Of a stretch of 64,000 bases of DNA, positions 43,527-63,919 are shown piece by piece. The stretch comes from Methanocalculus natronophilus. GTDB lineage: Archaea > Halobacteriota > Methanomicrobia > Methanomicrobiales > Methanocorpusculaceae. A program made the translations under genes and the position numbers. The notes beneath the pieces were generated by a model. It saw only the letters and a program-made list of their open reading frames with translations. It was not told the origin of the DNA and made no database searches. The DNA lies in the NCBI RefSeq assembly GCF_038751955.1, contig NZ_JBCEXH010000001.1, positions 204,300 through 268,299 of the forward strand. Direction: 5' to 3'. Each line of letters begins with the position of its first letter. The stretch's first letter is position 1.

Positions 43527-43850
43527 AATAGAGGTAACGGCTACAATAGTACCCAATCCCCTCTATTCGTACTGTGCAGTCTCTTCTCTCTATGCACCAT
43601 CCTTTTTTGTTTCTGGTCAGGGAGAGCCTGGGCCTCACCGATATTGGTATCAGGGAGACCGGAATATCTGGTGCTGGTACATGTTTTGAACTCCGTGTTC
43701 CTGTTGGATATTTCCGGTGGAGTATAAATCAGGCTAATAGCGATGAGGCACTTTGAGAGAGGGGTAATTCACTTTCATCCTGCACGGTTCACTTCTTATT
43801 ACCTTGCAGGTGTTCTTTGTTGTATGTATTCAGCAGGCAGTTCAACGATC
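43527..43850. other. Intergenic region between toxin-antitoxin and Orc1-like genes
   Basis: About 320 nt without a convincing gene. It contains the antitoxin promoter side and a TATA element (TATAAATC, 43723-43730) on the plus strand. A short open frame 43574-43756 has no recognised homology. The frame of the Orc1-like gene is open from 43743, but the residues before 43851 do not look like Orc1. Confidence 0.5.
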
Positions 43851-45404
43851 ATGTCACGCCACTTCAGATGCCACGACAAGCCGCTTCTCAGGGATCCGGA
43901 GATCCTCGAATGCGATTACGTGCCAGACCAGGTGCTCTTCCGTGATGCAGAGCTTGAGGAGATGGCATTCCATATCAGGCCCGGCCTCCATGGCCAGCGG
44001 CCGACGAGTATTCTCTGCCGGGGCCTGCCTGCCACTGGCAAGACGACCTGCATCCACCATCTCTTCACCGAGATCAGGCAGGTCAGCACGAACCTCGTTC
44101 CGGTGTATGTGAACTGCCAGCGGAGCAGAACAGCATATGCGGTCTATTCATTGATCTACCTGGAGCTGGTCGGCCATGCTCCCCCGAGTTCGGGCATCCC
44201 CCTCAGGCGCCTGATGGATGCCGTTGCAAAGGCACTTCTCTCAAAGAACGTCGTTCTGCTGGTCTGCCTTGACGATATCCACCACCTGATCCATGAGAAG
44301 ACCGCGGGCCAGGTCATCTCCTCGATCCTCAGGATGTATCTCGATTATCCCGGGTGCCGTGCCTCCCTGATCCTGGTCGAGAGCGATCTCACACTTGATA
44401 TCCGGCAGACGCTCGATCGATCGGTTATCTCAAGCCTCCTTGCAGAAGAGGTCTTCTTTGCCCCCTACTCCCCGGAACAGGTACAGGGCATCCTGAAGGA
44501 GCGGGTCAGAAGAGCGGTCTATCCGGGTGTTCTTCCCCTTGAGATCCTCGACCTGATCACCGATAAGACCATAGAGGCAGGCGATCTCCGTGTCGGCATC
44601 GACCTCCTCAAGCGCTCAGTACTCAGGGCCGAACGGGCGGCGCACATCACCGTCACCGAAGAGGATGTCAGCGCCGCCTATGGGGACGCCAGCGCAACGC
44701 ACCTCCGGGGCCTCGTCTCGCTCCTCACCGAAAAGGAGCGCCGGCTCCTCCTGGTCATCACCACCATGATCGAGGAGGGCGAACGAGCAGAACAGGAGAG
44801 ACGGGAGGAGACGAAGACGCGGGAGGAGAAGGAGAGAGGGGAGATGGGGAGGCTGGGTAAAGAAGACAAAAAGAGTAGTGCTAAAGAGACGTCTGGACGG
44901 GCGAATAAAGGGACAGAATATGATGAGTCCATGCCCCCGACTTCCGGGAGGGTCTACGCCCGCCTCCTGAGGGTGATGGCAGGGGAGCCTCTCTCTGGGC
45001 CCCGGGCAGAACCATCATCAGCAGATGCATCTGCCGTGGGCGAACCGGGCCCTGGCTATGGTTCCAACACCGCCACCCCCGCTGCCACCTGCTCCACCAC
45101 CCACACCGGCAGCGGTCCCGGTAGCACCCATGTGAGCGGCCATGGGGGCGGCCATGGGGGCGGCCCAAGTAGTAGCGCAAACGGCAGTGCTTCCTTCTCC
45201 TATTCGTCCTTCTATGAGCATCTCCACACCCTCGCCAACTACTCACTCATCACTATCACGGTCAGGCAGGCGAAAGGCCGGACAAGCGAGATCACCCTCC
45301 GGCACCCGGCCCGGAAGATGAGGCAGATCTATGAGGAGGTATGGGGGAAGGTAGAGGGGGGTAGGATAGAGAGGAGAAGGAGAAGGGAAGGGGAGGTAGG
45401 ATAG
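43851..45404 (+). CDS. Orc1/Cdc6-like AAA+ initiator protein, divergent
   Basis: 517 residues from MSRHFRCHDKPLLRDPEIL. The AAA+ core has Walker A GLPATGKTT (58-66), Walker B LLVCLDDIHHL (D141-D142, where LDE is usual) and a sensor region LVESDLTLDI. The C-terminal winged-helix region (SSFYEHLHTLANYSLITI) is split by about 140 residues of low-complexity Glu/Lys/Arg then Gly/Ser/His-rich sequence (about 316-459), absent from normal Cdc6. It would recognise an origin, perhaps of an integrated element. An 87-bp copy of its P-loop region lies 1.26 kb upstream. Confidence 0.85.
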   Translation: MSRHFRCHDKPLLRDPEILECDYVPDQVLFRDAELEEMAFHIRPGLHGQRPTSILCRGLPATGKTTCIHHLFTEIRQVSTNLVPVYVNCQRSRTAYAVYSLIYLELVGHAPPSSGIPLRRLMDAVAKALLSKNVVLLVCLDDIHHLIHEKTAGQVISSILRMYLDYPGCRASLILVESDLTLDIRQTLDRSVISSLLAEEVFFAPYSPEQVQGILKERVRRAVYPGVLPLEILDLITDKTIEAGDLRVGIDLLKRSVLRAERAAHITVTEEDVSAAYGDASATHLRGLVSLLTEKERRLLLVITTMIEEGERAEQERREETKTREEKERGEMGRLGKEDKKSSAKETSGRANKGTEYDESMPPTSGRVYARLLRVMAGEPLSGPRAEPSSADASAVGEPGPGYGSNTATPAATCSTTHTGSGPGSTHVSGHGGGHGGGPSSSANGSASFSYSSFYEHLHTLANYSLITITVRQAKGRTSEITLRHPARKMRQIYEEVWGKVEGGRIERRRRREGEVG

Positions 45405-45657
45405 AGAGGAGAAGGAGAGGGGAGGGGAGGGGCAGGAAGATTTGTGAGGCATAGGCAAGGGATACGGAAGGAATAGAGAAGGGATAGGGAAAGAACAGAG
45501 AATTCACTTCCCTCTCAATTATCCAATTATCCAATTATCCAATTACCCAATCATCCGATTATCGAAATTATCCAATTTGTCGAACTCCAATTTTCATCAC
45601 TTTCGCATCCTACCCGCCAGTTATATAAGCGCTAAAATGTGACTCTTTCCATATACT
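45405..45657. other. Repeat-rich intergenic region after the Orc1-like gene (candidate origin)
   Basis: A purine-rich stretch (GGAGAAGGAGAGGGGAGG, about 45407-45435) is followed by 8-bp AT-rich tandem repeats. The 3' end carries a promoter, TTATATAA at 45621-45628, for the DUF488 gene. Purine tract plus AT-rich repeats next to an initiator gene resembles an origin, but no canonical ORB element with its G-string was recognised. Confidence 0.35.
45516..45563 (+). repeat. Six 8-bp AT-rich tandem repeats
   Basis: CAATTATC x3, then CAATTACC, CAATCATC and CGATTATC, followed by degenerate copies to about 45585. It could be an unwinding element or plain slippage repeat. Confidence 0.85.
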
Positions 45658-46476
45658 ATGATAACAAAAAAGAAGCGGGCTCTCTTATATCTGCTTGGTA
45701 AAAAACAAAGCCTTACAAAATTACAATTGGTCAAACTACTATTCCTGGCATCACAGGATAATCCCCTTTATGATTTTGTACCTTACAGGTACGGCCCGTT
45801 TTCATTCCAGCTGTATACTGATATAAGCCATCTGGAGAGGGACGGGTACCTGCTTGAAACAAATACCATAGTTACGTCCCTCAATCATGAGTTTCCCTTC
45901 CCGGATCGTTTTATCCAGATGTCAATCGATCAGGTAGTACGCCAGTTTGGTGATAAAACCGAGCGGGAACTCATTGAGTATATTTATTCACAGTATCCGG
46001 AAACCACCATTTTTTCTGAGATAGAGAAGCGGCAACCGTACGAGAGGGATGAAACCGGTGTTGTCACAATCGGATATGAGGGGAAAAGTATTGATCGTTT
46101 CCTCTCGGTCCTCATCGATTCAAAAGTCGGAAAAGTAATTGACGTGCGAAGGAATGCGTTCAGTATGAAATATGGTTTCTCAAAGAAGCAGATCTCAAAT
46201 TATCTTGAACATATGGGAATCACCTACCTCCATATGCCTGAACTTGGCATCCAGAGCACCCGGCGGCAGAACCTCACAGATGAAGGATATGCACGACTCT
46301 TCCATGAATATAACCAGGAATTAGGTGAAAAAGCGGCCTGTCTCAATACCATCAAAACCATTGCAGAAGATGAAAAAGTGGCACTGCTCTGCTTTGAGGC
46401 AAAGGCATCCGACTGCCACCGGGGAGTTATCGCAGAGCGATTCCGGGAGGAGGGGCTGGAGGTTGTTGACCTGTGA
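45658..46476 (+). CDS. Two-domain protein: Panacea/DUF4065-like N-terminus fused to DUF488
   Basis: 272 residues. The N-terminal ~110 residues (RALLYLLGKKQSLTKLQLVKLLFLAS, YDFVPYRYGPFSFQLY) resemble the socA/Panacea-like antitoxin fold. The C-terminal DUF488 domain starts TIGYEGKSIDRF and carries IDVRRNAFSMKYGFSK, LGIQSTRRQNL and ALLCFEAKASDCHRG. DUF488 has an uncharacterised Arg/Cys/His-rich pocket and is common in defence neighbourhoods. It is coupled to the next gene by a 4-nt overlap. The promoter TTATATAA lies about 30 nt upstream. Confidence 0.75.
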   Translation: MITKKKRALLYLLGKKQSLTKLQLVKLLFLASQDNPLYDFVPYRYGPFSFQLYTDISHLERDGYLLETNTIVTSLNHEFPFPDRFIQMSIDQVVRQFGDKTERELIEYIYSQYPETTIFSEIEKRQPYERDETGVVTIGYEGKSIDRFLSVLIDSKVGKVIDVRRNAFSMKYGFSKKQISNYLEHMGITYLHMPELGIQSTRRQNLTDEGYARLFHEYNQELGEKAACLNTIKTIAEDEKVALLCFEAKASDCHRGVIAERFREEGLEVVDL

Positions 46477-47297
46477 CCTGGAAGACGAAGAAGGTACTTG
46501 TCACAGTGAAGGCATATCCGGAAAAAAGTAAAAAGCACGGTTCATCTGTGTGTACTGCGGGAGTAACAGATGAGGGGGAGTGGATTCGATTATATCCAAT
46601 GCCTATTTCATTGTTTACCGGCTCTCAAAAAATCAGTCGATATGACTGGATAGAGGTGGAGTGTCAAAAGGCAACTGATGAGAAATTGGGAAGGAAGGAG
46701 AGTTATCGGGTTCGCCCCGACTCAATCCGGGTACTCGATCAGTCGCTCTCCTCCGGGAAGAGAGCGGGACACGCCCCATGGGATGAGAGAAACCGGATTT
46801 TGCTACCAAAAGTTGCTTCTTCTCTCGAAGTTCTTATGGAACAATATAAAACAGATAAAACATCACTGGGGCTCATCAAACCAACTGAAATTCTAAGATT
46901 TTATACAAGGGAACCATTACAGGAGCCTCCCCTCTCAACAGAATATCAACAGTCCCTGACCAGTGAAAGAATACCGATTATTGCGGATCTCCCTCATCCA
47001 TTTGCCTATGAATTCAAATGCGATGGATGTGTTGATGGAAAAACTCACGACATTAAATGCCTTGACTGGGAGCTATTTGAATCATATCGAAGCTGGTGGA
47101 GAAAATACCAGGATCTGCAACTCCTCTGGGAAAAGCTCCACCTGAAGTTTTTCAGCGAGATGAGAGAGAAGAACCTATATTTTTTCGTAGGCATGCATTC
47201 ACTCCAACCAACATGGCTCATAATAGGCTTATATTACCCTAAAAATGACAAAATATCCCCAATAACCAGAGTTAAATCTCTCAGTGATTTTTCATAG
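46473..47297 (+). CDS. Unknown partner of the DUF488 protein
   Basis: 274 residues from a GTG. The N-terminal domain (VLVTVKAYPEKSKKHGSSVCTAGV, EGEWIRLYPMPISLF, WIEVECQK) looks like a small beta-barrel. The C-terminal half has a CDGC...HDIKC cluster (about 187-203) with potential metal ligands and a Trp/Glu-rich helix. I do not recognise the family, though it recurs beside DUF488 genes. Start overlaps the DUF488 stop by 4 nt, implying a stable two-protein unit. Confidence 0.6.
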   Translation: MTWKTKKVLVTVKAYPEKSKKHGSSVCTAGVTDEGEWIRLYPMPISLFTGSQKISRYDWIEVECQKATDEKLGRKESYRVRPDSIRVLDQSLSSGKRAGHAPWDERNRILLPKVASSLEVLMEQYKTDKTSLGLIKPTEILRFYTREPLQEPPLSTEYQQSLTSERIPIIADLPHPFAYEFKCDGCVDGKTHDIKCLDWELFESYRSWWRKYQDLQLLWEKLHLKFFSEMREKNLYFFVGMHSLQPTWLIIGLYYPKNDKISPITRVKSLSDFS

Positions 47298-48466: not shown

Positions 48467-48610
48467 GTGAACTACCCCCCGCTTGCGCAGGGGGCTTCCT
48501 GCGAGTGTCCGGGGATCGATGCGATCTTCAGACCTGTATGTCGCAGATTACCGGTAAACTCCTGGTAGCCCGTCCACAGGGCATTTTGTGATAGGCAGCG
48601 TAGCATAATA
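48467..48610 (-). ncRNA. Predicted omega-RNA/reRNA region at the element right end
   Basis: TnpB guide RNAs are normally transcribed over the 3' end of tnpB to the right end, with the guide lying just outside the element. Here the tnpB tail overlaps the RE hairpin, matching that layout. The guide would come from the adjacent DUF365 start region. This is inferred from position only. Confidence 0.4.
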
Positions 48611-49725
48611 TTGACCGCAGCGTTTCTGTCGCGGTCGAACACGCTACCACAATCACACTGCATAACACGATCTTTGACGGTCATCTCTGGGTGGATTTTT
48701 CCACAGCAGCAGCACGTCTTGCTCGTGTACTCTTCGCCGATCTCTATTACCTGTTTACCTGCAAGGATCGCCTTGTAGGTCAGAAATCCGGCAAAACGTG
48801 CAAGGTATCCGGTTCCTTGCGTTGACCTGTTCATCAGTTTCGTTGCTGTCTTGGACCTCGGCATCTTCTTCACCGAGAGATCGCCGATAATGATCGTTGT
48901 GGCCTTGGTATTCTCAACGAGTTTCTTGCTTACCTTGTGCTGGAAGTCCTTGAGCTGGTTGCTCTTTTTCTTCTCCATCTTTCGCTTGACGGCGTTGTAG
49001 CGTTTCCACCTCCGGCTTGGTTGTTTCCCCTTGATCTTCTTGCAGTGATCCCGCTTGGACTGCACGGTATCAATCTTCTTGTTCCAGTACCGATCCGGGC
49101 GGATGTTCTGGACTTCAATGAACTTCCCCTGACTGTTGACGGCGGTCTGCTTTATTACTCCGAGATCCCATGCCTGATACTGGCCGTTGTCAACGGGCGT
49201 CGGGGGAACGACCACTTCAACCACGGCAAGATACCATTTCTCCTTGCCATCCTGGAATACCTCAACCTGCTTGACAACCCCAAACTCATGTTCCGGGATG
49301 GCAAAGATCAGATCTACCCCTCCCGGCAGCTTGTGCGACAGTTTGATTGAGTCTGTGTCGATCTTGAACCCCGACTGGTTGTGCTTCATAGTGGTGAAAT
49401 ACTTCCGCCCTTTGAATCCCGGGGGTTTTGCATCGGGATCAACCTTGATCAACTCGAAGAACGACCGGTAGTTGGCATCCAGCGTCTTGAGCGTCATCTG
49501 CAGGACTTTCGCGTTGACCTTCTTCAGTTCCGGCCACTCTTTCTTGAGTTCCGGAAGATCGTTCTGCTGTTTGATGTAGGTCACGCCTTTGGTTCCGGTA
49601 GCGTAGGCATCACGCCGTTCGTTGAGCGCCCTATTGTACAGTCTCCGGTTGATATCGGACAGATCCCACAGGACGGCTGCCTGCTCTTCCGTGGGGTAGA
49701 TCCTAATCCTCCTTGTGAACTGCAT
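48472..49725 (-). CDS. tnpB: TnpB RNA-guided nuclease of the IS605 element
   Basis: 417 residues. The N-terminal HTH (MQFTRRIRIYPTEEQ) is followed by the RuvC-I Asp in AWDLGVIKQTAVNS, a RuvC-II region IIIGDLSVKKM with no Glu at the usual place, a zinc ribbon (CCCCGK...CDCG), and the RuvC-III Asp in FDRDRNAAVNIML. GEEYTSKTCC carries glutamates that could supply a relocated catalytic Glu. TnpB cuts DNA next to the TAM under guidance of an RNA read from the element's right end. Its start overlaps tnpA. Confidence 0.9.
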   Translation of the reverse strand: MQFTRRIRIYPTEEQAAVLWDLSDINRRLYNRALNERRDAYATGTKGVTYIKQQNDLPELKKEWPELKKVNAKVLQMTLKTLDANYRSFFELIKVDPDAKPPGFKGRKYFTTMKHNQSGFKIDTDSIKLSHKLPGGVDLIFAIPEHEFGVVKQVEVFQDGKEKWYLAVVEVVVPPTPVDNGQYQAWDLGVIKQTAVNSQGKFIEVQNIRPDRYWNKKIDTVQSKRDHCKKIKGKQPSRRWKRYNAVKRKMEKKKSNQLKDFQHKVSKKLVENTKATTIIIGDLSVKKMPRSKTATKLMNRSTQGTGYLARFAGFLTYKAILAGKQVIEIGEEYTSKTCCCCGKIHPEMTVKDRVMQCDCGSVFDRDRNAAVNIMLRCLSQNALWTGYQEFTGNLRHTGLKIASIPGHSQEAPCASGG

Positions 49726-50134
49726 CTCGTTCCTCCGCCTGGCTATCTACATACTTCTTCAAAATGTCCAGCGTGACCTGTCCGGTGGTTGCAAGGAAAT
49801 AGGATCGTGACCAGAAGGCATCACGCCAGAGCACTTGTTTGACCTCGGGGAAGTTCCGCCGGATCTCCCGTGAGGAAATGGTCTTCAGGGCGTTGATGTA
49901 CTTCGGGAGATTCAGCGTCGGCCCCGCCTTGAACAGCATATGGAAGTGATCCGGGCTGCACTCGATGTTGGTGACTTCAACCCCGAAGGTTTCAGAGATG
50001 CTGTGGATCTTGGTCTTCAGGAGATCCACATACCGATCATCGACAAAGACTCCTCTCCGGTACTTGACACACTGCACCAAATGGTAGTGCAAAGCATAGA
50101 CCGAATGGGCGCCCTTATCTAATCGGTAGTCCAT
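49703..50134 (-). CDS. tnpA: TnpA Y1 transposase of the IS605 element
   Basis: 143 residues of the Y1 HUH family: HuH as HFHML (residues about 63-67, SPDHFHMLFKAG), and the catalytic Tyr in DILKKYVDSQ near the C-terminus. The core YRRGVFVDDRYV is also typical. It performs single-strand peel-and-paste transposition using hairpins at the element ends. It overlaps tnpB by 23 nt. It appears intact, so the element may still be mobile. Confidence 0.93.
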   Translation of the reverse strand: MDYRLDKGAHSVYALHYHLVQCVKYRRGVFVDDRYVDLLKTKIHSISETFGVEVTNIECSPDHFHMLFKAGPTLNLPKYINALKTISSREIRRNFPEVKQVLWRDAFWSRSYFLATTGQVTLDILKKYVDSQAEERDAVHKED

Positions 50135-50228
50135 AGTTGCTATCAGGTGTGATGAACCATAAAGGTTGCGCGAGCTCGTAGACGGCTCTCATCCCCCAGC
50201 TTGCGCAAGGGGACTTCTCGCATGTGGA

Positions 50229-50452
50229 GTTAAAGGCTATTGTGTGGTGATCGGGGAGATCAGCAATAATGTCAAATGAGTACACTTTTCTCCCTATCCA
50301 AGAAGTCTATAACTATCGGTGCTATACCTATCGGTGATAAGAGAGGGTTGGAAAGATGACGATGGAGGGGAGGAATAGAACAGAGAACGGCGCAATACCC
50401 GGATTAGAATTGAGACTCCGGGAGGTCGGGGAGAGCCTGCGGAGGGGCGTGT
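50229..50452. other. Region between the IS element and the YhcG-type gene
   Basis: About 220 nt with a direct repeat CTATCGGTG (near 50314 and 50329) around a TATA-like CTATAACTAT. It ends in GGAGGGG (50441-50447), a strong Shine-Dalgarno element for the YhcG-type gene. The only ORF is a 36-codon frame listed separately. Confidence 0.4.
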
Positions 50453-54181: not shown

Positions 54182-54224
54182 TTACTCACTCACCTACTCA
54201 CTCACCTACTCACTCACCTACTCA
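54182..54224 (+). repeat. 12-bp tandem repeats
   Basis: About three and a half copies of CTACTCACTCAC, directly after the stop of the EVE gene and overlapping its last codons. Simple slippage repeat. Confidence 0.8.
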
Positions 54225-54676
54225 CCCCGACCGAGGATCAACTGATAATCCTCTTCCGGGATCTCCCGCATCGCCACCCGGATATGGCCCGTCCACATCG
54301 TCTTGTTCTTGATAAACGAGAGCTCCGGGATGAGCGGCTTGAACTCAACTGGCTCCCTGAAGATCTTAATCGGCTTCAGTTTCACCCTATAGGGGAAGAC
54401 CTCATCCCCCATCCGCTCCGGCGTCACAAAGAGCGGCGCTGAATCTTCATATCCCTCAGATACGATCTCAAATGCACCGGCGACTGCTGAGGGGAGGATC
54501 TCATCGCCTTTACCTTCTGTCACCTCTTTCTTCTGCTGGGCGACATAGACCACGATTTTATCGCCCGGCTTCACCCGTTCAATAATCGATTTGTTCCGCT
54601 TCGGAACCCCCCAGATGTTCTTCTGCCGGATGATCTCCCAGTTGTCGCGATTGGAGGAGGCAAACCAGTATGTCAT
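54218..54676 (-). CDS. EVE-domain protein
   Basis: 152 residues, EVE/PUA-like: MTYWFASSNRDNWEIIRQKNIWG, VKPGDKIVVYVAQQK, AGAFEIVSEGYED and TMWTGHIRVAMREIPEEDYQLI. EVE domains bind modified bases (such as methylcytosine-type marks) in DNA or RNA and often sit next to restriction systems. Here it diverges from the helicase-Mod-Res operon, 108 nt away, consistent with a base-modification-reading role. Function in this organism is inferred. Confidence 0.85.
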   Translation of the reverse strand: MTYWFASSNRDNWEIIRQKNIWGVPKRNKSIIERVKPGDKIVVYVAQQKKEVTEGKGDEILPSAVAGAFEIVSEGYEDSAPLFVTPERMGDEVFPYRVKLKPIKIFREPVEFKPLIPELSFIKNKTMWTGHIRVAMREIPEEDYQLILGRGE

Positions 54677-54784
54677 GATTGGGAGTTGGTGGGGGGAGAG
54701 GATAAAGGTTGTAGCAAGTCAATACCCAGAATGAACCAATCTGCCATCAAAACTTATTACATACCTAAAGGATGATACTGTATC

Positions 54785-57700
54785 ATGACTGATGCTATCT
54801 CCTCTCCGGAGCAGATAATTCAAATTGTTAACACCGCTTTGCAAAATCGAAAAAGTAGTGTTGTAAATATTCTTAATGATAAATTGACCTTATCTGTTTT
54901 TTCTGAACTTGAGAGAAATTTACATAGCGTTCAGGAAATCAACCTCATCATCCGGGAAGGAAGCACAAATACCAATAGAAAAGAATTGGTACAGGAGTTT
55001 GAAATCACAACCTCGCCATCCGATGTGTTTTTGAATAATTATGAAATAACGCAGAAGAATAAACTGAGATACTTTCACAAAGCCAGATTGATGCACGATT
55101 TCATTGATTCTCATGTCAATGTGAAGAAAATTATTTCTCCGGAGATGGTAAAAGGCAATATTCTCATTATTGATGATGATATTCAGATTCAGGGGACTTC
55201 TTCACTTGAGATCACCCGGCCAAGAACCGTACATGGTCTCCCCCAAATACATTTTGATACATTTATAAATAGTTCAATGGATAAAGATCAAATAAGGAGA
55301 TCTCTTAAATTATTCAATGAGTTGTGGAATAACAGGGGTTATTCGATCGACTATAAAGAAGAGCTTTTAGAAGGGCTTCGTTATATTTACAAGGACTATT
55401 CTCCAGAATTTTTATATTATTTTACCATAAACACCCTCTTCGGCCATCAGCTGGATTCGAGTTTTGAACATCTGGAAAGTGATAGTAGCCGGTTTAAGAA
55501 GACCAGAATATGGACTGCCCTCTATAATTTTCAGAAAGATGCGGTTGCCTCTGGTATCCAAAAGATAAACAGGTATAATGGATGTATTCTTGCTGATAGT
55601 GTTGGTCTTGGAAAAACATATGAGGCACTTGCCATAATCAAATTTTTTGAGATGCGCAATGACAATGTTCTCGTTCTCGCTCCAGCAAAACTCTATGATA
55701 ACTGGGATTCATTTAGAAGCCCGTATGTTGATAATCCACTTGCGGAAGACAGGTTAAATTATAAGATTCTTTCTCATACGGATCTCTCTCGTAAGAAGGG
55801 AATGTCGCGTTCCGGTCTCGATCTATCGCGTGTGGATTGGGGGAGTTTTGACCTTCTGGTCATAGACGAATCGCACAACTTCCGGAACCGAATTGAAAGT
55901 AAGGATCACATCACCCGCTATCACAAGCTCATCTCAGATATCATTCAGAAAGGGACCAATACCAAAGTATTGTTACTATCTGCAACACCTGTGAACAATT
56001 CGTTGCGGGATTTGCGTAATCAAATAAGTATCATTACTTCCGATAGGGATTCTGCATTTGAAGAGGAGGGCATCCCCAGTATTCAACAATTACTGATCAA
56101 TGCTCAGAAGGAGATAAATGAATGGTCCGATTCTTCAAGAAATAATAAACTTGCACTCCTGGACAAACTACCCTCAGAGTTTTATAAACTTCTTGAAATG
56201 ATAACAATCTCCAGAAGCAGAAAACATATTACAAGGTATTATGGTTCAGGAGACTTTGGGGTTTTTCCAAAGAAACTTAAACCAATAGTATTTCGTCCTG
56301 AGATTGATTCAAATGGCATTCTATTAAAATTCTCCGATGTCAATGATGAATTGGAGACATTGATCTTATCTGTCTACTCCCCGATGGCATACATTCTCCC
56401 TCAATATAAAGAAATGTACCGGGAGAAATATGCAACAAAGGTTGATGGGCGAAGATTATTTGATCATGAGCAGAGAGAAGCTATTAATGTCAAACTCCAT
56501 CGATTCAATCTTTGTAAGAGGCTTGAAAGCTCAGTATATTCCTTCGGAACGACAGTTGAAAGACTCCTTGGGAGGATAGATTCCTACATATCTGCCTTAT
56601 CTTCAGATAGGATGAATGTCTCTACCGATGAAGATATCGATGATGAGGATGATTTTTTCCTTGATTACAAATATGATATTGATGTACGTCATCTGGATGT
56701 GAGGAATTATCTTGAAGACCTGGAATATGATAAAAACAAACTGGTAAATATTCAAACTCAGATCAAGTTGATCCTCGATAAGCAACGAGATTTGAAACTT
56801 CATGAATTATCAACGTTTACAAAAGAAAAAATTCAAGGCACTCCGTATAATTCTGGGAACAAAAAAGTCCTTATATTCTCTGCTTTTGCAGATACAGCAA
56901 ATTATCTGTATGATTCTCTCTCTCCGATGCTGAAGGAGAACGGTATTCATGCAGCGGTTGTCACAGGGAGTGACAAGCCACGCACGACAATAAAAGGAGT
57001 TAGTCTTCAATTCAACGAAGTATTATCACTTTTCTCACCTCGATCCAAAGGGCAGACCGATGTATCAGAGAGAACAATTGATGTGTTGATTGCAACGGAT
57101 TGTATATCCGAGGGTCAAAATTTACAGGATTGCGACTGCGTTGTCAATTATGATATTCAGTGGAATCCTGTCGTTCTCATTCAGCGTTTCGGAAGAATTG
57201 ACCGGCTTGGCAGTCAAAACCCTCACATTCAGATGGTAAATTTCTTCCCGAATATGGAATTGAATGAGTATCTCCAGCTTGAAGAGCGGGTAAAGCGGAA
57301 GATGGTTGCAGCCAATATCGGATCAACCGGGGATGAGGATCTCCTTAGTCCTGACATGAATGATCTTGAGTTCCGTCGTACTCAGCTTGAACGAATCCAG
57401 AAAGATGTTGTTGAACTGGAGGAGATGGGAGATACACTCTCTTTGACCGACCTGAACATGAATGACTATCTTAATGAATTATACGACTATATAAAGGCTC
57501 ATCCTGAGATTAAACAGGTACCTGCAGGTGTTTTCTCGATAACAAAGGGTACTGAAAAAGGATGCCTCTTCTGTTTCCGTCACAGTGAAGAACAGATCAA
57601 ACCAAAGAGTGACAGTTCTCTCTATCCATATTATCTGATGTATATAAAACATTCAGGTGAAGTGTATATTGGTATGCATAACGCCCGTGAGGCCCTGGCG

Positions 57701-57952
57701 GAGTTCCGGAGATTATCATATGGTAATTCTGAGCCCGATCATGCTCTTGTCCGTCAGTTTAAGGCAAAAACTCGTGATGCCGAGGATATGGCAAAATACT
57801 CGAAGATGATTACAAAAGCCATAACCGCGATTACAGGAGCCGAAAGGAGAAGGGCTGAGGAGAGTATATTTGATTTCACCGGATATAATGATGATTTCTC
57901 CCAAACCGTCGAGGATGACTTTGAACTGATATCATTCTTAATTGTTGAGTGA
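54785..57952 (+). CDS. SNF2-type helicase of the type III-like restriction island
   Basis: 1055 residues. The N-terminal ~250 residues have no recognised domain. The SF2 core follows: Walker A SVGLGKTYEAL (about 277-286), DLLVIDESHNFRNR (motif II), LLLSATPVNN (motif III), and a C-terminal RecA fold with VLIFSAFADTANYL and ATDCISEGQNLQDC...QRFGRIDRLGS (motifs V-VI). Such helicases accompany DUF4391 proteins and Mod/Res genes. It is likely a DNA translocase. GGATGAT lies 8 nt upstream. AT-rich relative to the core, so probably acquired. Confidence 0.9.
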   Translation: MTDAISSPEQIIQIVNTALQNRKSSVVNILNDKLTLSVFSELERNLHSVQEINLIIREGSTNTNRKELVQEFEITTSPSDVFLNNYEITQKNKLRYFHKARLMHDFIDSHVNVKKIISPEMVKGNILIIDDDIQIQGTSSLEITRPRTVHGLPQIHFDTFINSSMDKDQIRRSLKLFNELWNNRGYSIDYKEELLEGLRYIYKDYSPEFLYYFTINTLFGHQLDSSFEHLESDSSRFKKTRIWTALYNFQKDAVASGIQKINRYNGCILADSVGLGKTYEALAIIKFFEMRNDNVLVLAPAKLYDNWDSFRSPYVDNPLAEDRLNYKILSHTDLSRKKGMSRSGLDLSRVDWGSFDLLVIDESHNFRNRIESKDHITRYHKLISDIIQKGTNTKVLLLSATPVNNSLRDLRNQISIITSDRDSAFEEEGIPSIQQLLINAQKEINEWSDSSRNNKLALLDKLPSEFYKLLEMITISRSRKHITRYYGSGDFGVFPKKLKPIVFRPEIDSNGILLKFSDVNDELETLILSVYSPMAYILPQYKEMYREKYATKVDGRRLFDHEQREAINVKLHRFNLCKRLESSVYSFGTTVERLLGRIDSYISALSSDRMNVSTDEDIDDEDDFFLDYKYDIDVRHLDVRNYLEDLEYDKNKLVNIQTQIKLILDKQRDLKLHELSTFTKEKIQGTPYNSGNKKVLIFSAFADTANYLYDSLSPMLKENGIHAAVVTGSDKPRTTIKGVSLQFNEVLSLFSPRSKGQTDVSERTIDVLIATDCISEGQNLQDCDCVVNYDIQWNPVVLIQRFGRIDRLGSQNPHIQMVNFFPNMELNEYLQLEERVKRKMVAANIGSTGDEDLLSPDMNDLEFRRTQLERIQKDVVELEEMGDTLSLTDLNMNDYLNELYDYIKAHPEIKQVPAGVFSITKGTEKGCLFCFRHSEEQIKPKSDSSLYPYYLMYIKHSGEVYIGMHNAREALAEFRRLSYGNSEPDHALVRQFKAKTRDAEDMAKYSKMITKAITAITGAERRRAEESIFDFTGYNDDFSQTVEDDFELISFLIVE

Positions 57953-57957
57953 AAACC

Positions 57958-58686
57958 ATGTTTGGGATCCCATCAGAATACCACGCCGGAATTGTTACTG
58001 ATGTTCGTAAGATCTCTCTTACACATCTTAAACCAGCTGAGCGACGCCGGTTCCGCGAGGCTCTGAAGGAATTAATTCTGGAGTATGTCGTGAAGAGTGA
58101 TCACATCCCATCCTATGTGACTGAGACCGATTCGGTTATGGCAGTGCAGTTCATCACTGTAAACGTAGATGCCATTCGGTCTGCACCTTTTGTCTGCGGA
58201 ATTTTGCAGAGAATGATCAAAACACCCTGTGTTCTGAAGGTCAGAGGTAGAAGAGAGGAGATGTATTCCTTTGCCCTGAAACGACTGAATCTGATGGATA
58301 AGGGATCTGTTGTGGTTGATGATGAGTTCCTGACCTGGGCTCTCCCCTATGGTGTTCCGAGTGCTGATGATGGGTTAATCCATACATATGCAAGCTGGGA
58401 TACCGTCGTCAATAAGACAAATCTGTATTCATGGTATACTGAGATGATGGTTAAATGCTATATTATCACACACCGGACTATTTGGTCCGGTATGGACGGT
58501 CTGCTCTCATCCAAGGTCTGGTATAATACTGAAGATGTCATGGCGATGTATACTGAACTCAAAGATCTGGTGAAACTTACCGAGCAGAGAGGCAGGTCAG
58601 TAACTATTAGTCAATCTGCCAAATTGAACCGGGAGTTGAGGGGTATATATGAGAGGCTGAGATCTTTCATAGAAATATCCAATTGA
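57958..58686 (+). CDS. DUF4391-family protein
   Basis: 242 residues from ATG 57958, with GAGTGA about 5 nt upstream; a GTG at 57949 overlapping the helicase stop is possible. It has the DUF4391 pattern: LTHLKPAERRRFREALKELIL, SYVTETDSVMAVQFITVNV and MYSFALKRLNL. A helical C-terminus contains KLNRELRGIYERL. It recurs between such helicases and type III-like Mod genes. The biochemical role is unknown; a connector or specificity factor is a guess. Confidence 0.8.
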   Translation: MFGIPSEYHAGIVTDVRKISLTHLKPAERRRFREALKELILEYVVKSDHIPSYVTETDSVMAVQFITVNVDAIRSAPFVCGILQRMIKTPCVLKVRGRREEMYSFALKRLNLMDKGSVVVDDEFLTWALPYGVPSADDGLIHTYASWDTVVNKTNLYSWYTEMMVKCYIITHRTIWSGMDGLLSSKVWYNTEDVMAMYTELKDLVKLTEQRGRSVTISQSAKLNRELRGIYERLRSFIEISN

Positions 58687-58769
58687 CTATTGGTTTAAAA
58701 CGCTATCGGGCTCATTTTCAAAATTTGAGAATTTATTATGACTCTTTGATATATTAATCAGATTCGGAA

Positions 58770-58778
58770 CATATAAAA
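58770..58778 (+). promoter_or_regulatory. TATA box before the Mod gene
   Basis: CATATAAAA, about 50 nt upstream of the Mod ATG in a 137-nt AT-rich gap. This suggests that Mod and Res have their own promoter separate from the helicase-DUF4391 pair. Confidence 0.5.
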
Positions 58779-58823
58779 GATACACTCTCCTATTGTCACT
58801 TTACAACAGTACATGTGATGATC

Positions 58824-60749
58824 ATGGACGAACATAAAATCTCAAGCACAGTTTTCAATCCGGCATCTGATAATCTCCGAAAATTAACAGCTCTCTTCCC
58901 CTCGATTATGAAGGATGGCCAGGTGGATTTTGAGGCACTTAAAGCCGAACTTGGAACATTTGAAGAAGCTGGAAAAGAGCAATACGGACTGACATGGGCA
59001 GGCAAGCAGGAGGCAAAAAAGAACGCCGCTGAACCAGTATTTGGTCGCACTCTGAAGTATGTCCCGAAAGAGAGTAAGAATTTGAAGGCGACAGAGAACC
59101 TCTATATTGAGGGGGATAACCTTGAGGTGCTTAAGCTCTTGCAGAACAGCTTCATGGGCAAGATTAAGATGATCTATATTGATCCTCCTTACAATACAGG
59201 GAATGATTTTATTTTTAAAGATAAATTTTCTGTATCTGAGAGAGAAAATTCCCTTGCTGAAGGGGATATTGACGAGTTTGGAAATCGTTATATCATCAAT
59301 ACAACACAATCGGGACGATATCACGCCAACTGGTTATCGATGATGTATCCTCGCCTTCGGCTTGCAAAGAATCTATTGAGGGATGATGGAGTAATAATTG
59401 TCTCAATTGATGATAATGAAGTTCATAATCTTCGTCATATTTTAAATGAAATTTTTGGTGAAGAGTCATTTGTTGCAATGTTCCCTTGGCGAAAAAGAAC
59501 TGCAAAATCGGATGTTCCTTTTGGCATATCTCAGGATTATGAATGGCTCATAGCATATGCCAAGAGCAATACATTTATTGCTTGTATCAAAGGGGGTACA
59601 CGAAGATATTATACGACAGATGATCTACCAAATAGATCGTGGAGAGTCCATGATTTAACTACACAAAGAGATGCGGGGGAAAGGCCAAATAGTTTTTTTG
59701 ATATGATCAACCCAAAAAATGGCAAAAGATATCCTGCAAATCCTAATAGTGTTTGGAGAATTACAAAAGAAACGTTTGCGAAATATTATGAAGAGAACAG
59801 AATAGTATTCCCAGGTGATTATGATTTTTTAAATATTTCAAAACCTGTCTTAAGATATTTTAAGGAAGATGATGAGCAGAAGGCAGGAGAATTATTTGGC
59901 TATGTCCCTGTCAGTACTCATCTTCCTGAAAACATAGGTATGACACAAAACGGAACAAGGGATATGAGAAGTTTATTTGACAATAGAGTTTTTTCCTTTC
60001 CCAAACCAGTAAGTATTATAACATTTCTAATAAAAATAACATCCGCGATATATAAAGACGGTATTATCCTCGACTTCTTCTCCGGTTCAGCAACCACAGC
60101 CCATGCTGTGATGCAACTCAATGCCGAAGATGATGGAAACCGAAAATTCATAATGGTTCAGCTCCCTGAGGTATGCCCGCCGGATTCAGAAGCCGCTCGA
60201 GCCGGATACAAGACAATATCCGACATAGGGAAAGAACGCATCCGTCGTGCCGGTGACAAGATCGTGGCCGAATCCGGGAAAGAGATTGACATTGGCTTCA
60301 AAGTCTTCAAAACTGCTGATACGAATATCCGCTGGATTGCCCAGGAGAACGGAGTGCAGATCTCCCAGACACATCTTGATGACACCGCAAAGTCCGTTCT
60401 CGATCGTCGTGACTTTATGCCGGATGCAACCGACATTGATGTAGCATATGAAATTCTCTTAAGGCAATGGGATATTCCGCTCTCAGCTACGATGGAAACC
60501 CTCATAGATATCGGCCAGAGGACATACTGCTTTGCAGATACTGTTGTTGTATGCCTTGAGGAAGAGGTGACACGGGAGATCGTTGATAAGATCGCTTCGA
60601 TCGAACCGATGCCCCATAAGGTGATCTTCCGGGATAGCGCCTTTGGCAAGAACATCAGTCTGAAACTCAATACGATGGAGCGTTTTGACGCCATGATGAA
60701 GAAACATGGGGAGAAGACAAAACAGGCCTATACTGTTGAGTTCCTCTGA
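58824..60749 (+). CDS. mod: Type III-like restriction system DNA methyltransferase Mod
   Basis: 641 residues from MDEHKISSTVF. It is a beta-type N6-adenine methyltransferase: the catalytic DPPYNTGNDF motif (about 115-124) precedes the SAM-binding ILDFFSGSATTAHAV (about 415-429). The N-terminal region (KNAAEPVFGRTLKYVPKESK, ENLYIEGDNLEVLKLL) and the central target-recognition region (about 220-400) match type III Mod. It protects host sites and gives Res its specificity. The recognition sequence cannot be read from the protein. The central region is notably AT-rich. Confidence 0.93.
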   Translation: MDEHKISSTVFNPASDNLRKLTALFPSIMKDGQVDFEALKAELGTFEEAGKEQYGLTWAGKQEAKKNAAEPVFGRTLKYVPKESKNLKATENLYIEGDNLEVLKLLQNSFMGKIKMIYIDPPYNTGNDFIFKDKFSVSERENSLAEGDIDEFGNRYIINTTQSGRYHANWLSMMYPRLRLAKNLLRDDGVIIVSIDDNEVHNLRHILNEIFGEESFVAMFPWRKRTAKSDVPFGISQDYEWLIAYAKSNTFIACIKGGTRRYYTTDDLPNRSWRVHDLTTQRDAGERPNSFFDMINPKNGKRYPANPNSVWRITKETFAKYYEENRIVFPGDYDFLNISKPVLRYFKEDDEQKAGELFGYVPVSTHLPENIGMTQNGTRDMRSLFDNRVFSFPKPVSIITFLIKITSAIYKDGIILDFFSGSATTAHAVMQLNAEDDGNRKFIMVQLPEVCPPDSEAARAGYKTISDIGKERIRRAGDKIVAESGKEIDIGFKVFKTADTNIRWIAQENGVQISQTHLDDTAKSVLDRRDFMPDATDIDVAYEILLRQWDIPLSATMETLIDIGQRTYCFADTVVVCLEEEVTREIVDKIASIEPMPHKVIFRDSAFGKNISLKLNTMERFDAMMKKHGEKTKQAYTVEFL

Positions 60750-60760
60750 GGGGATTGAAG

Positions 60761-63700
60761 ATGACAGATAAGATTACCTTTCATTTCGATGATTCTCTCG
60801 ACTATCAGCTTGATGCAATCCGATCCACCGTTGGTCTTTTTGAGGGGCAGGAGAAGGCTGAGGGTACAACCATATATCGTCAGAGCAGGACCGAGCTTGG
60901 GGGCTCGCTTGAACGAAATCCCCGAATCAGTTTAGGAGGGCGTAGAATTCTTGATAATCTCCGTTCCATCCAGTTCCAGAACAGTCTGAATCCCGATGAC
61001 AGTCTCGATAATCACAATTACTCTATCGAGATGGAAACTGGAACAGGAAAGACCTATGTCTATCTTCGGACGATCCTTGAACTCTATAAGACATATGGAT
61101 TCAGGAAGTTCATCATCGTTGTTCCCAGTATCGCCATCAGGATGGGTGTTGAAAAAAGTATTGAACAGCTGAATGATCACTTTAAAGCGCTCTACGACGG
61201 ACTCGATATCAAATCGCGATCCTTTGTATATACCTCAAGTGCTCTTGGAAAGCTTCGGGATAGTTTTACTTCAAGTCCGGAGCTCTCCGTTGCCATAATG
61301 AATATCCAGGCATTTAACAAAGATACAAATATCATACGACAGGAACGCGAGGGAAGAGATCCCACATGGGATCTGCTCAAAGATGTTCAGCCGATTGTCA
61401 TAATTGATGAACCACAGAAGATCGAAGGGACACAGAGGAGAACCAGCTCATCATTAAAGGCAATTAATGACCTTGAGCCACAATTTATTCTCAGATACTC
61501 AGCAACCCATAAACAGCTCTATAATCAGATATACCGGCTGAGTTCGTATGATGCCTATGATAAAGGTATTGTAAAAAAAATTGAAGTCAAGACGGTCTAT
61601 GGAGAAGTGCCAAAAGACTTCCCTTATATTCGTTATGTAAAATTCACCAATGATCTCAGAGCAAAACTTGAAATTTTCTCTCGGGATCCGGAGCATGGTA
61701 TCGTCAAAAAGCAGTTCAATGTACTGAAAGGAAATTCCCTCTTTGAACTTTCAGGTGAGCTCTCCCAGTACAGGGATATGATTGTTCATACCAATCCACA
61801 TAAAATTGAAGGTGTCACAATCAGCAGCAGATATGGTCAGAGGGGGCTTTTTCCTGAGGATACCACATCTAATAAAACGTCCATCACTATCAAGAGCGGA
61901 ATGGCTGAGTTCATCAAGCTTAGTGAAGGTGATTGCACCTACAATGAAGAATTGACCGATGATATTGTCACCCGTGTTCAGATACGAATAGCTATCAGAA
62001 CACACCTTGACAAACAGTTCGCTATCCTTGATGCAGGTAAACAGATCAAGGCACTCACTCTCTTTTTCATTGATTCAGTCAAAAAGGTTCGTGATGACGA
62101 TGCACCTGATGGTCGGGGAGAGTACTTGAAGTTATTTGATGAAGAATATCAGAATATCATAAATGAGGATAAATACAGAACTGCATTCAAAAAATATGAA
62201 CAATATTTCCCGGAATATACCGATATCCTTCAGGTCAGAGAAGGCTATTTTGCACGAGATAAAAGTGGAAAGGCTGTTGAACCTGAATCATCTTCCCGAA
62301 GAGGCGAAACCGAAGCTGTGGAGGATAGTTATAAGGGTAAATCAAAAGAGGATATCGAGCGGGGAATATCCCTTATCCTCGAGAGGAAAGAAGATTTAAT
62401 ATCCTTCAAAACCCCTCTTGCTTTCATCTTCTCGCATTCAGCTCTTCGGGAAGGATGGGATAACCCCAATATCTTCACAATTTGTACTCTTAAACAAGGA
62501 AATTCCGATATAGCCAAAAAACAGGAGTTAGGACGAGGACTTCGTCTCCCGGTTGACACGAATGGAGAACGATGTCTTGAGGAAAAGATCAACTGGCTCA
62601 CCGTTATTGCAAATGCATATTATGAGGACTTTGCAAAACACCTTCAATCTGACTTTAATGCTGAAAGTGGTTTTGATAAAGACACTGTAACCATGAGAGA
62701 GCTGAAAGCCACGTTGATTGATGCCGGAATTCCTGTGGAGAAGATTACGCAGGACCTCGTCACCTCATTTCACAAAGAACTACGAAGTAACTCAATTATA
62801 AACTCAAAAGACAAGCTTACCGGAGATGCTACAAAGATCTCGGATATGGTATTTCAAGACGAAACTCTCCTCGAACACGCAATTGGAATCAGACGTTCTT
62901 TTGTTGATGTGATGAAGAATAAGGGTTCCACAAAAGTTCTTATCAAAAACGGAGATGTGCCCGATGCAACAAATGAATATCACTCCTATATGGATGAGGA
63001 TGGTTTTAAGCAACTTCTCCTGAATCTAAAAATGCGAATGGAGAAAAGAACATATTATGAGGTTGAAATTGATTCAGATGCGTTTATTCAAAGAGCCTCC
63101 AGAAAAATTTCAACTCTCCTGAGACGACCGGAGTTCACGAAGCAACAGATTACCGTGACAGAGGCACGGCTTGGGATGGAAGATACTGGTCAGGCACGGC
63201 TTAGTGAATCAGTTGAACAATATGAAACCGAAGAGGCAACGCATTTTCAGCAGAAGAAAACCGATTTCCAGATTGTCAATTATATTATGAGCCAGACAAG
63301 ACTTCCACGAATGGCAATATATTCGATTCTTGGAGAGCTTGAACCCGAAGAAAAGGAATATCTAAGAAACCAGGATATCCTTGATATTGTCGCTACGGAG
63401 CTGCGAAAAGAACTCCAGGATGCAAAGGCAGAGCGGGTTATTGGATACCATATCATAAGCGGATATGTTTTTGATGAGAACACACTCTTTGAATCGGATG
63501 TGATTGATCCGGATCTTTTAGAAGAAGAGAAGAAAGTATATTCAACTGATCCGAGTAAACGAAAAGCTCTCCATAAATACTATCGGACAGACAGTTCCGG
63601 TGAATGGACCTTTGCAGACCATTTGGAACATGATGATAATGTACTGCTCTTCACCAAACTTCATAAGGGTGGCTTCGTTATTGATACTCCCTATGGGCAT

Positions 63701-63919
63701 TATTCCCCCGATTGGGCGGTCATCTACAGAAATGGTGATTCGGCTCAGCTCTACTTTGTTGTTGAAACGAAATTTCAAAAAGAAAAACAAGGTTTGAGTG
63801 GAATAGAGTGTTGTAAGATAAAGTGTGGAGAATTACATTTCAAGGCCGTTGCTAATGACATTCAATTTATCTATGCTAAGGATTACCTGGACTTCCGGAG
63901 CAAGGCATTTGTAGGTTGA
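60761..63919 (+). CDS. res: Type III-like restriction enzyme Res subunit (helicase-nuclease)
   Basis: 1052 residues from ATG 60761, with GAGGGG 7 nt upstream. SF2 motifs are METGTGKTYVYL (Walker A, about 92), VIIDEPQKIEG (motif II), LRYSATHK (motif III) and LREGWDNPNIFTIC...QELGRGLRLPV (motifs V-VI). The C-terminal PD-(D/E)XK nuclease has YSPDWAVIYRNG and VVETKFQKEKQG. It translocates from Mod-bound sites and cuts unmodified DNA. It lies 11 nt downstream of mod. All catalytic motifs look intact. Confidence 0.93.
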   Translation: MTDKITFHFDDSLDYQLDAIRSTVGLFEGQEKAEGTTIYRQSRTELGGSLERNPRISLGGRRILDNLRSIQFQNSLNPDDSLDNHNYSIEMETGTGKTYVYLRTILELYKTYGFRKFIIVVPSIAIRMGVEKSIEQLNDHFKALYDGLDIKSRSFVYTSSALGKLRDSFTSSPELSVAIMNIQAFNKDTNIIRQEREGRDPTWDLLKDVQPIVIIDEPQKIEGTQRRTSSSLKAINDLEPQFILRYSATHKQLYNQIYRLSSYDAYDKGIVKKIEVKTVYGEVPKDFPYIRYVKFTNDLRAKLEIFSRDPEHGIVKKQFNVLKGNSLFELSGELSQYRDMIVHTNPHKIEGVTISSRYGQRGLFPEDTTSNKTSITIKSGMAEFIKLSEGDCTYNEELTDDIVTRVQIRIAIRTHLDKQFAILDAGKQIKALTLFFIDSVKKVRDDDAPDGRGEYLKLFDEEYQNIINEDKYRTAFKKYEQYFPEYTDILQVREGYFARDKSGKAVEPESSSRRGETEAVEDSYKGKSKEDIERGISLILERKEDLISFKTPLAFIFSHSALREGWDNPNIFTICTLKQGNSDIAKKQELGRGLRLPVDTNGERCLEEKINWLTVIANAYYEDFAKHLQSDFNAESGFDKDTVTMRELKATLIDAGIPVEKITQDLVTSFHKELRSNSIINSKDKLTGDATKISDMVFQDETLLEHAIGIRRSFVDVMKNKGSTKVLIKNGDVPDATNEYHSYMDEDGFKQLLLNLKMRMEKRTYYEVEIDSDAFIQRASRKISTLLRRPEFTKQQITVTEARLGMEDTGQARLSESVEQYETEEATHFQQKKTDFQIVNYIMSQTRLPRMAIYSILGELEPEEKEYLRNQDILDIVATELRKELQDAKAERVIGYHIISGYVFDENTLFESDVIDPDLLEEEKKVYSTDPSKRKALHKYYRTDSSGEWTFADHLEHDDNVLLFTKLHKGGFVIDTPYGHYSPDWAVIYRNGDSAQLYFVVETKFQKEKQGLSGIECCKIKCGELHFKAVANDIQFIYAKDYLDFRSKAFVG

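Follow-up and report, generated by a model that had tools for sequence, protein, structure and literature searches.

A DUF488 fusion protein and its predicted OB-fold partner in Methanocalculus natronophilus match the candidate phage-defence system PDC-M19

What is the function of a pair of overlapping genes in Methanocalculus natronophilus that a first-pass annotation, made from the sequence alone, described as an uncharacterised toxin-antitoxin or antiviral unit? The window that we analysed is a stretch of 64,000 nucleotides (contig NZ_JBCEXH010000001.1, positions 204,300 to 268,299), and all coordinates below are those of the window unless another locus is named. Both genes lie on the forward strand. 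Gene 1 (45658..46476) starts with ATG and encodes 272 amino acids, gene 2 (46473..47297) starts with GTG and encodes 274 amino acids, and the two overlap by 4 nucleotides (GTGA), leaving no intergenic gap. A TATA box that we read directly from the sequence (TTATATAA, 45621..45628, forward strand) starts 37 bp before the ATG of gene 1 and is likely to be the single promoter of the pair. The two-gene unit, its overlap and its shared promoter had all been claimed in the first-pass annotation, and all of them held up, as did the assignment of part of gene 1 to DUF488.

The DUF488 domain of gene 1 (residues 144-261; 46087..46440, forward strand) matches PF04343 with E = 3.3e-24 and 86.3 bits, against a gathering score of 22.2. 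Nearly the entire protein (residues 3-264) also matches the PADLOC model PDC-M19A (PDLC04505; E = 1.1e-77), and NCBIfam has no match to the product of either gene at E ≤ 10. The residues C245-F-E247 and C253-H-R255 contain most of the conserved positions: C245, E247, C253, H254 and R255, along with D162 and R164, are invariant in 18/18 aligned gene 1 homologues. Across loci with a gene 2 homologue, the motif CxE(4-7)CHR is kept in 54 of the 57 distinct DUF488 sequences, and the other three (L056, L097 and L025) retain the C, the E and the CHR around a longer loop. Because this Cys-Glu...Cys-His-Arg motif is conserved, DUF488 looks like an active enzyme throughout the family. In the structure model of gene 1 (pLDDT 92.1), residues 131-272 resemble tetrapyrrole-methylase-like and tyrosine-phosphatase-like folds (Z = 7.8-9.5). 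Burroughs and Aravind (2023) reportedly placed DUF488 in a RapZ-C-DUF488-DUF4326 clade, with a predicted role in DNA-end processing in conflict systems.

The N-terminal domain of gene 1 (residues 1-126; 45658..46035, forward strand) had been called antitoxin-like and, more specifically, Panacea-like. An antitoxin fold is indeed what we found by structure comparison: residues 2-126 align over 124 residues with the DarG subunit in a DarTG complex (chain 7yk3_B), with Z = 12.0 and an rmsd of 3.0. (We take this 188-residue chain to be the DarT-binding C-terminal domain of DarG.) The structure matches that follow, at Z = 9.5 and below, fall on the DUF488 part of the protein. The same DarG chain was the single row, insignificant at E = 0.1, when we searched the PDB by sequence. 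By Foldseek, the match to DarG is weak (E = 1.1e-3), and we count this against the reading that we favour below. The Panacea part of the claim fared less well. PF13274 gives sub-threshold matches to 6 of 11 homologous N-termini, the best at E = 0.017 and 14.7 bits against a cut-off of 25.7, and when we compared the N-terminus of gene 1 with 16 Panacea domains taken from its own order, hhalign reported a probability of 0.2%. With the Pfam matches below the cut-off and the profile comparison negative, membership in the Panacea family is unsupported.

The first-pass annotation had found no known domain in gene 2. This did not hold: residues 5-260 match PDC-M19B (PDLC04508) with E = 3.6e-58, and there is a remote similarity to the Pfam family DuOB (PF22557). 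Together these rule out a new, domainless protein. As the two proteins match PDC-M19A and PDC-M19B, the pair is a member of PDC-M19, a catalogued phage-defence candidate. The similarity of the window protein itself to DuOB (E = 0.031, 14.8 bits) lies below the cut-off of 27, and 5 of 16 gene 2 homologues reach DuOB at E ≤ 1, the best at 6.5e-5. An hhalign comparison of three DuOB proteins with 65 gene 2 homologues aligned 60 columns with E = 4.2e-5 and a probability of 70%; the reverse direction gave 26%, an alignment of 16 gene 2 sequences gave 27%, and one Panacea control gave 0.2%. A search of the DuOB loci with a gene 2 profile HMM returned no DuOB protein at E ≤ 10. On balance, these comparisons make it likely that gene 2 and DuOB are remotely homologous. 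Among Pfam families at E ≤ 1, DuOB is the only match for gene 2, which matches no toxin family, and gene 1 has no match to a macrodomain.

Structure prediction of gene 2, one of the checks that the first-pass annotation had proposed, pointed to an OB fold. In the model (pLDDT 83.7, with residues 160-164 and 260-274 below 50), the highest VIA rows, on residues 1-114, come from OB folds of SSB and telomere-end-binding proteins (Z = 8.4-8.7). The five Foldseek rows at E ≤ 0.001 are Teb1, three RPA structures and a HIN domain; their TM-scores are low, about 0.2-0.4. The HIN domain, which consists of two OB folds, aligns with 154 residues of the model at a middling score (Z = 7.6), and matches to viral structures include SSB-like proteins and LEF-3. 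The best OB match is itself middling (Z = 8.7 over 84-91 residues), which also counts against our favoured reading. Searching the PDB by sequence gave a single insignificant row, an O-methyltransferase at E = 0.35. From the model we predict that gene 2 is an OB-fold protein, and it may have two OB folds.

Gene 2 does contain the CxxC...C cluster that had been singled out earlier (C183, C186 and C196); together with H192 and a DWE motif (D198, W199 and E200), it is encoded at 47019..47072 on the forward strand. The second cysteine is missing in 4 of 16 aligned homologues, and all of the Cys and His of the cluster are absent in five members from Bacteroidota. The cluster is not conserved in the family, and its importance is unsupported. 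We also rejected the idea that gene 2 is essentially a CxxC metal protein, given that several members have lost the cysteines. Where the cluster is present, it is possible that it forms a metal site. As a separate observation, four gene 2 homologues (L021, L087, L091 and L092) have a single in-frame stop codon (TAG or TAA) beside intact DUF488 partners.

Is the pairing itself conserved? The first-pass annotation had proposed a neighbourhood survey, and in ours the pairing proved to be conserved. In a collection of genome contigs, DUF488 is directly upstream of the gene 2 homologue in 16/16 loci; close named homologues are from Methanoregula and other Methanomicrobiales (53-65% identity). In a survey of the archaeal phylum, we found gene 2 matches in 40 of 392 genomes, a count that takes in the window's own genome and six matches seen only at E = 1e-4 to 9e-4. 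Not every match row yielded a locus, and of the 31 loci that resulted (the window counts as one of them, and another is a repeat of L004), 20 have a DUF488 gene within 1.5 kb. For the remaining 11, no DUF488 lies in the flanks covered, which reach at most 1.5 kb either way; two of these loci are incomplete (L046 runs into a contig end and L047 is partial) and nine are whole. The nine whole loci all come from one archaeal family; by eye, five of them adjoin the same aminotransferase-like gene and three adjoin another common gene. Therefore, gene 2 may serve some purpose other than defence, and the shared neighbours of most of these copies suggest a domesticated function.

Outside the archaea, gene 2 matches occur in 15 of 198 Bacteroidota genomes, with DUF488 in 15/15 loci, although one of these repeats L003 and two (L091 and L092) look alike. 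(L003 is 61% identical to the window, which suggests that it is a misplaced archaeal contig.) Among 72,556 plasmid records, 23 have a gene 2 match, and 21 of the 23 have DUF488 within 1 kb (19 by tblastn coordinates and two, from Fischerella and Calothrix, by HMM); within the stretches read, pSOG2 and the Natronococcus plasmid have no DUF488 beside gene 2. The paired plasmid copies are arranged in several ways: 14 of the 21 pairs converge (among them 7 from Rhizobium records whose matches are almost identical), five are co-directional with DUF488 first, and two are co-directional with DUF488 second. Among phages, all 7 matches in 50,697 records are from Gordonia phages. In Nymphadora, the phage that we read, gene 2 (gp43) comes directly after the immunity repressor gp44, near the integrase, and is convergent with gp42. 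The DUF488 partner here is not gp44 but gp42, which is annotated as a "HipA toxin" and matches PDC-M19A with E = 5.4e-29 (L049, 6789-7241). A search of viral contigs with two strict patterns gave 26 pattern matches, none of them related, which is a weak negative. At least 8 of the paired archaeal copies are on contigs of over 2.5 Mb, which are likely to be chromosomes. Gene 2 and DUF488 stay adjacent even where their order or orientation has changed, which points to a functional connection between them. We also noticed that in a Methanothrix MAG (L017, 7174-11433), the whole pair is tandemly duplicated, with both copies of gene 2 interrupted.

While the DUF488 motif is retained in these pairs, the sequences indicate that the module in front of it is exchanged. 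A DarG-like N-terminus is present in 12/16 genome-contig loci (by sequence), and in 16/20 paired loci of the archaeal survey and 14/15 Bacteroidota loci (by profile). At five loci we saw, by eye, an AbrB-like sequence before DUF488. A ParB-like region is fused to DUF488 at three loci (annotated in L056 and L097, by eye in L025), with ParB-DUF488 fusions among the pair members on Sulfolobus plasmids, and an XRE helix-turn-helix is fused to it at two (L055 by Pfam, L099 by eye). No fused domain was seen with DUF488 at L016 or L093, on the four Proteobacterial plasmids read, on two cyanobacterial plasmids, or in Nymphadora gp42. (Gene 1 of L015 begins at a contig end.)

The region around the pair had been described as rich in defence genes, and its downstream side bears this out. 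There we found a gene for a YhcG nuclease at 50.4 kb, followed at 54218-63919 by an EVE-domain gene, C3a139 (HKD+Snf2) accompanied by DUF4391, and a type III restriction-modification pair; the PADLOC match C3a139 and the type III pair span 54.8-63.9 kb. Upstream of the pair are Cdc6 and AAA_21 genes, and Cdc6-like and TBP genes flank it. In two sister genomes, the YhcG, DUF365 and TBP genes are kept at 78-99% identity, and the pair is absent from the 19 kb that was read; gene 2 is also found in 0/7 other genomes of the genus. This implies that the pair is accessory. The surroundings have several other features of their own. An IS200/IS605 element (Y1 transposase and TnpB-like) is at 48467-50229, and a sister genome has a near-exact empty site (L148, junction 9381/9382). 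Both sister genomes have repeated DUF365 and YhcG units (L148, 5497-9931; L149, 8895-12792), with YhcG paralogues that are about 47% identical to the YhcG of the window, and between DUF365 and TBP they have an AAA ATPase and a second open reading frame that the window lacks at this position. The Cdc6/Orc1-like protein at 43743-45404 has a low-complexity stretch rich in Ser, Gly and His before its C-terminus, and its relatives, some of them fragmented, are in 8/8 genomes of the genus searched.

To ask about defence neighbours more broadly, we compared pair-bearing regions (12 of the 14 fetched, 118 of 123 neighbour ORFs, with the pair genes removed) to controls (10 of 14 regions, 117 of 124 ORFs); regions and ORFs that were redundant or beyond the limits of the analysis were left out. 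At E ≤ 1e-30, 52 PADLOC models were matched in the pair-bearing set and 21 in the controls. Among the matches listed, the pair-bearing neighbours include type IIG, type I methyltransferase and specificity, mad3, DrmMI, PDC-S01, S05 and S23, and the control neighbours include SNF2-type helicase models (such as ZorD, DpdE and BrxHI), SngC, DpdJ and DrmD. Because several models can hit one protein, and the matches listed for the pair-bearing set cover 25 of the 52 models, this excess is suggestive only, and we count the weakness of the test against our favoured reading.

We considered several explanations for these results. In a classical toxin-antitoxin system, gene 1 would be the antitoxin of gene 2, or DUF488 would be a toxin that either gene 2 or the N-terminal domain holds in check. 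The DarG fold of gene 1, the 4-nucleotide overlap behind one promoter, the residence of some pairs on plasmids and phages, and the AbrB-like or XRE domains of other members (both kinds are often seen in antitoxins) would all fit. However, the N-terminal domain is missing in many members, the 14 convergent plasmid pairs (7 being Rhizobium records) are not co-transcribed, gene 2 occurs without DUF488 in 9 of 31 archaeal loci, and gene 2 resembles no toxin family in Pfam, so we consider this explanation unlikely. What survives of the first-pass description is a conserved two-gene unit in which an N-terminus of antitoxin fold is joined to DUF488; we find this unit to be patchy and sometimes borne on plasmids or in a phage, and PADLOC lists it as a phage-defence candidate. 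The emphasis on toxin-antitoxin does not survive, given the replaced front ends, the convergent plasmid copies and the partner-only copies.

The partner-only copies could instead suggest that the pair is a housekeeping system for nucleic-acid repair or metabolism whose association with defence is incidental; five of the nine share an aminotransferase-like neighbour. The patchy distribution of the pair, its absence from the 7 other genomes of the genus and from beside the syntenic genes of the two sister genomes, and the phage and plasmid copies are all at odds with this, and we think it slightly less probable than a toxin-antitoxin system. Those phage and plasmid copies would be expected if the pair were a regulatory or maintenance module of mobile elements (for plasmid partition, or for prophage immunity or exclusion) and not a host defence. 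The ParB-DUF488 fusions on Sulfolobus plasmids, the 23 plasmid records and the position of the Nymphadora gene beside the immunity repressor and near the integrase favour such a module; yet the long archaeal contigs show that the pair is also carried on what are likely to be chromosomes, and in the window it lies near YhcG, C3a139 and type III restriction-modification genes. We give this explanation the least weight of the three.

We lean, by a modest preference over all else, towards the reading that this PDC-M19 member is a two-component, DNA-directed conflict module, in which gene 2 would be the OB-fold binder and gene 1 the DUF488 enzyme. Computation shows that the pairing is conserved, the active-site motif intact, the front module exchanged and the distribution patchy, and it also predicts the folds. 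The nucleic-acid substrate, the chemistry, the targeting to DNA and the antiviral role are what we infer: the pair is probably antiviral, and a DUF488/OB module rather than a classical toxin-antitoxin pair. The probable ligands of gene 2 are nucleic acids that are single-stranded or present an end structure. DUF488, with its rhodanese- or tyrosine-phosphatase-like Cys...Arg site, would probably carry out a transfer or hydrolysis whose substrate is either a nucleotide or the nucleic-acid end held by gene 2. The exchangeable module at the N-terminus of gene 1 would tether the enzyme to DNA or sense invasion, and may autoregulate. Besides the points noted above, the sub-threshold DuOB score, the gene 2 profile search that returned no DuOB protein and the 11 archaeal loci without DUF488 in the flanks covered count against this reading.

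The DuOB relationship links PDC-M19 to a second candidate system. We found canonical DuOB genes in 4 of 148 Bacteroidota genomes, and DUF488 genes adjoin them in 4/4 loci: two in tandem at three loci, and one plus shorter pieces at L151. At the two loci that we scored, PDC-M45B is the best model for the first DUF488 (2.4e-45 and 3e-86), the second matches PDC-M45C best at L153 (1.4e-67) and PDC-M19A best at L152 (8.8e-16), and the DuOB protein itself matches no PADLOC model. In the window's order, DuOB was found in 0/61, where the controls likewise gave nothing, so that this negative is uninformative. As the two scored DuOB/DUF488 loci match PDC-M45 models, PDC-M19 and PDC-M45 have the look of two sister systems, each combining DUF488 with an OB protein. 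A bolder and doubtful idea is that they are two branches of one undescribed immunity class. In this class, a dual-OB protein would capture a DNA or RNA end that is exposed by infection, and the cysteine-dependent DUF488, with a swappable front end (DarG-like, AbrB-like, ParB clamp or XRE) to direct it, would chemically seal or edit the end and so block replication of the invader.

PADLOC models of a phage-defence candidate cover both genes, and our analysis links PDC-M19 to PDC-M45. According to PMC12988326, PDCs are unvalidated candidates that come from a "guilt-by-embedding" preprint; "M19" is absent from the main text of PMC12988326. In the literature that we searched, which mostly excludes subscription journals, we found no experiment on PDC-M19, which also counts against our favoured reading, and no study of the gene pair. 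Our survey makes PDC-M19 a testable hypothesis, with an invariant enzyme and partner and a variable front-end domain, spread across archaea, bacteria, plasmids and Gordonia phages. If our reading is true, this would be a defence that modifies nucleic-acid ends or nucleotides with a rhodanese- or phosphatase-like fold, for which the same literature gave no experimental example.

How does the pair compare with known systems? It is the same gene pair as PDC-M19, itself a candidate, with both proteins matching components A and B over nearly their full length, and we found no difference. The DuOB loci also have an OB-type protein beside DUF488, and their DUF488 domains cross-match the PDC-M19A and PDC-M45 models, but two DUF488 genes follow DuOB in 3/4 of these loci, they have no match to the N-terminal profile of gene 1, and gene 2 of the window is below the DuOB cut-off. 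DarTG shares the fold of the DarG chain with the N-terminus of gene 1; in contrast, gene 1 has DUF488 and no macrodomain, and no DarT adjoins it. The resemblance to Panacea (PanA) antitoxins is a weak one in sequence (6/11 N-termini, all below the cut-off), and the N-terminal domain of gene 1 differs in its negative profile comparison and in being exchanged in other pairs. PMC10440598 makes the case that Panacea acts as a sensor where a different domain does the neutralising, and by analogy, a sensor role is possible for the N-terminal domain of gene 1 too. Finally, the pair members on Sulfolobus plasmids are ParB-DUF488 fusions, like the archaeal ParB-CTPase fused to DUF488-HTH for which CTP binding is reported in PMC12704722. 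Gene 1 of the window differs in having no ParB domain, and by analogy, CTP binding by that fusion is consistent with a front end that directs the DUF488 enzyme to DNA.
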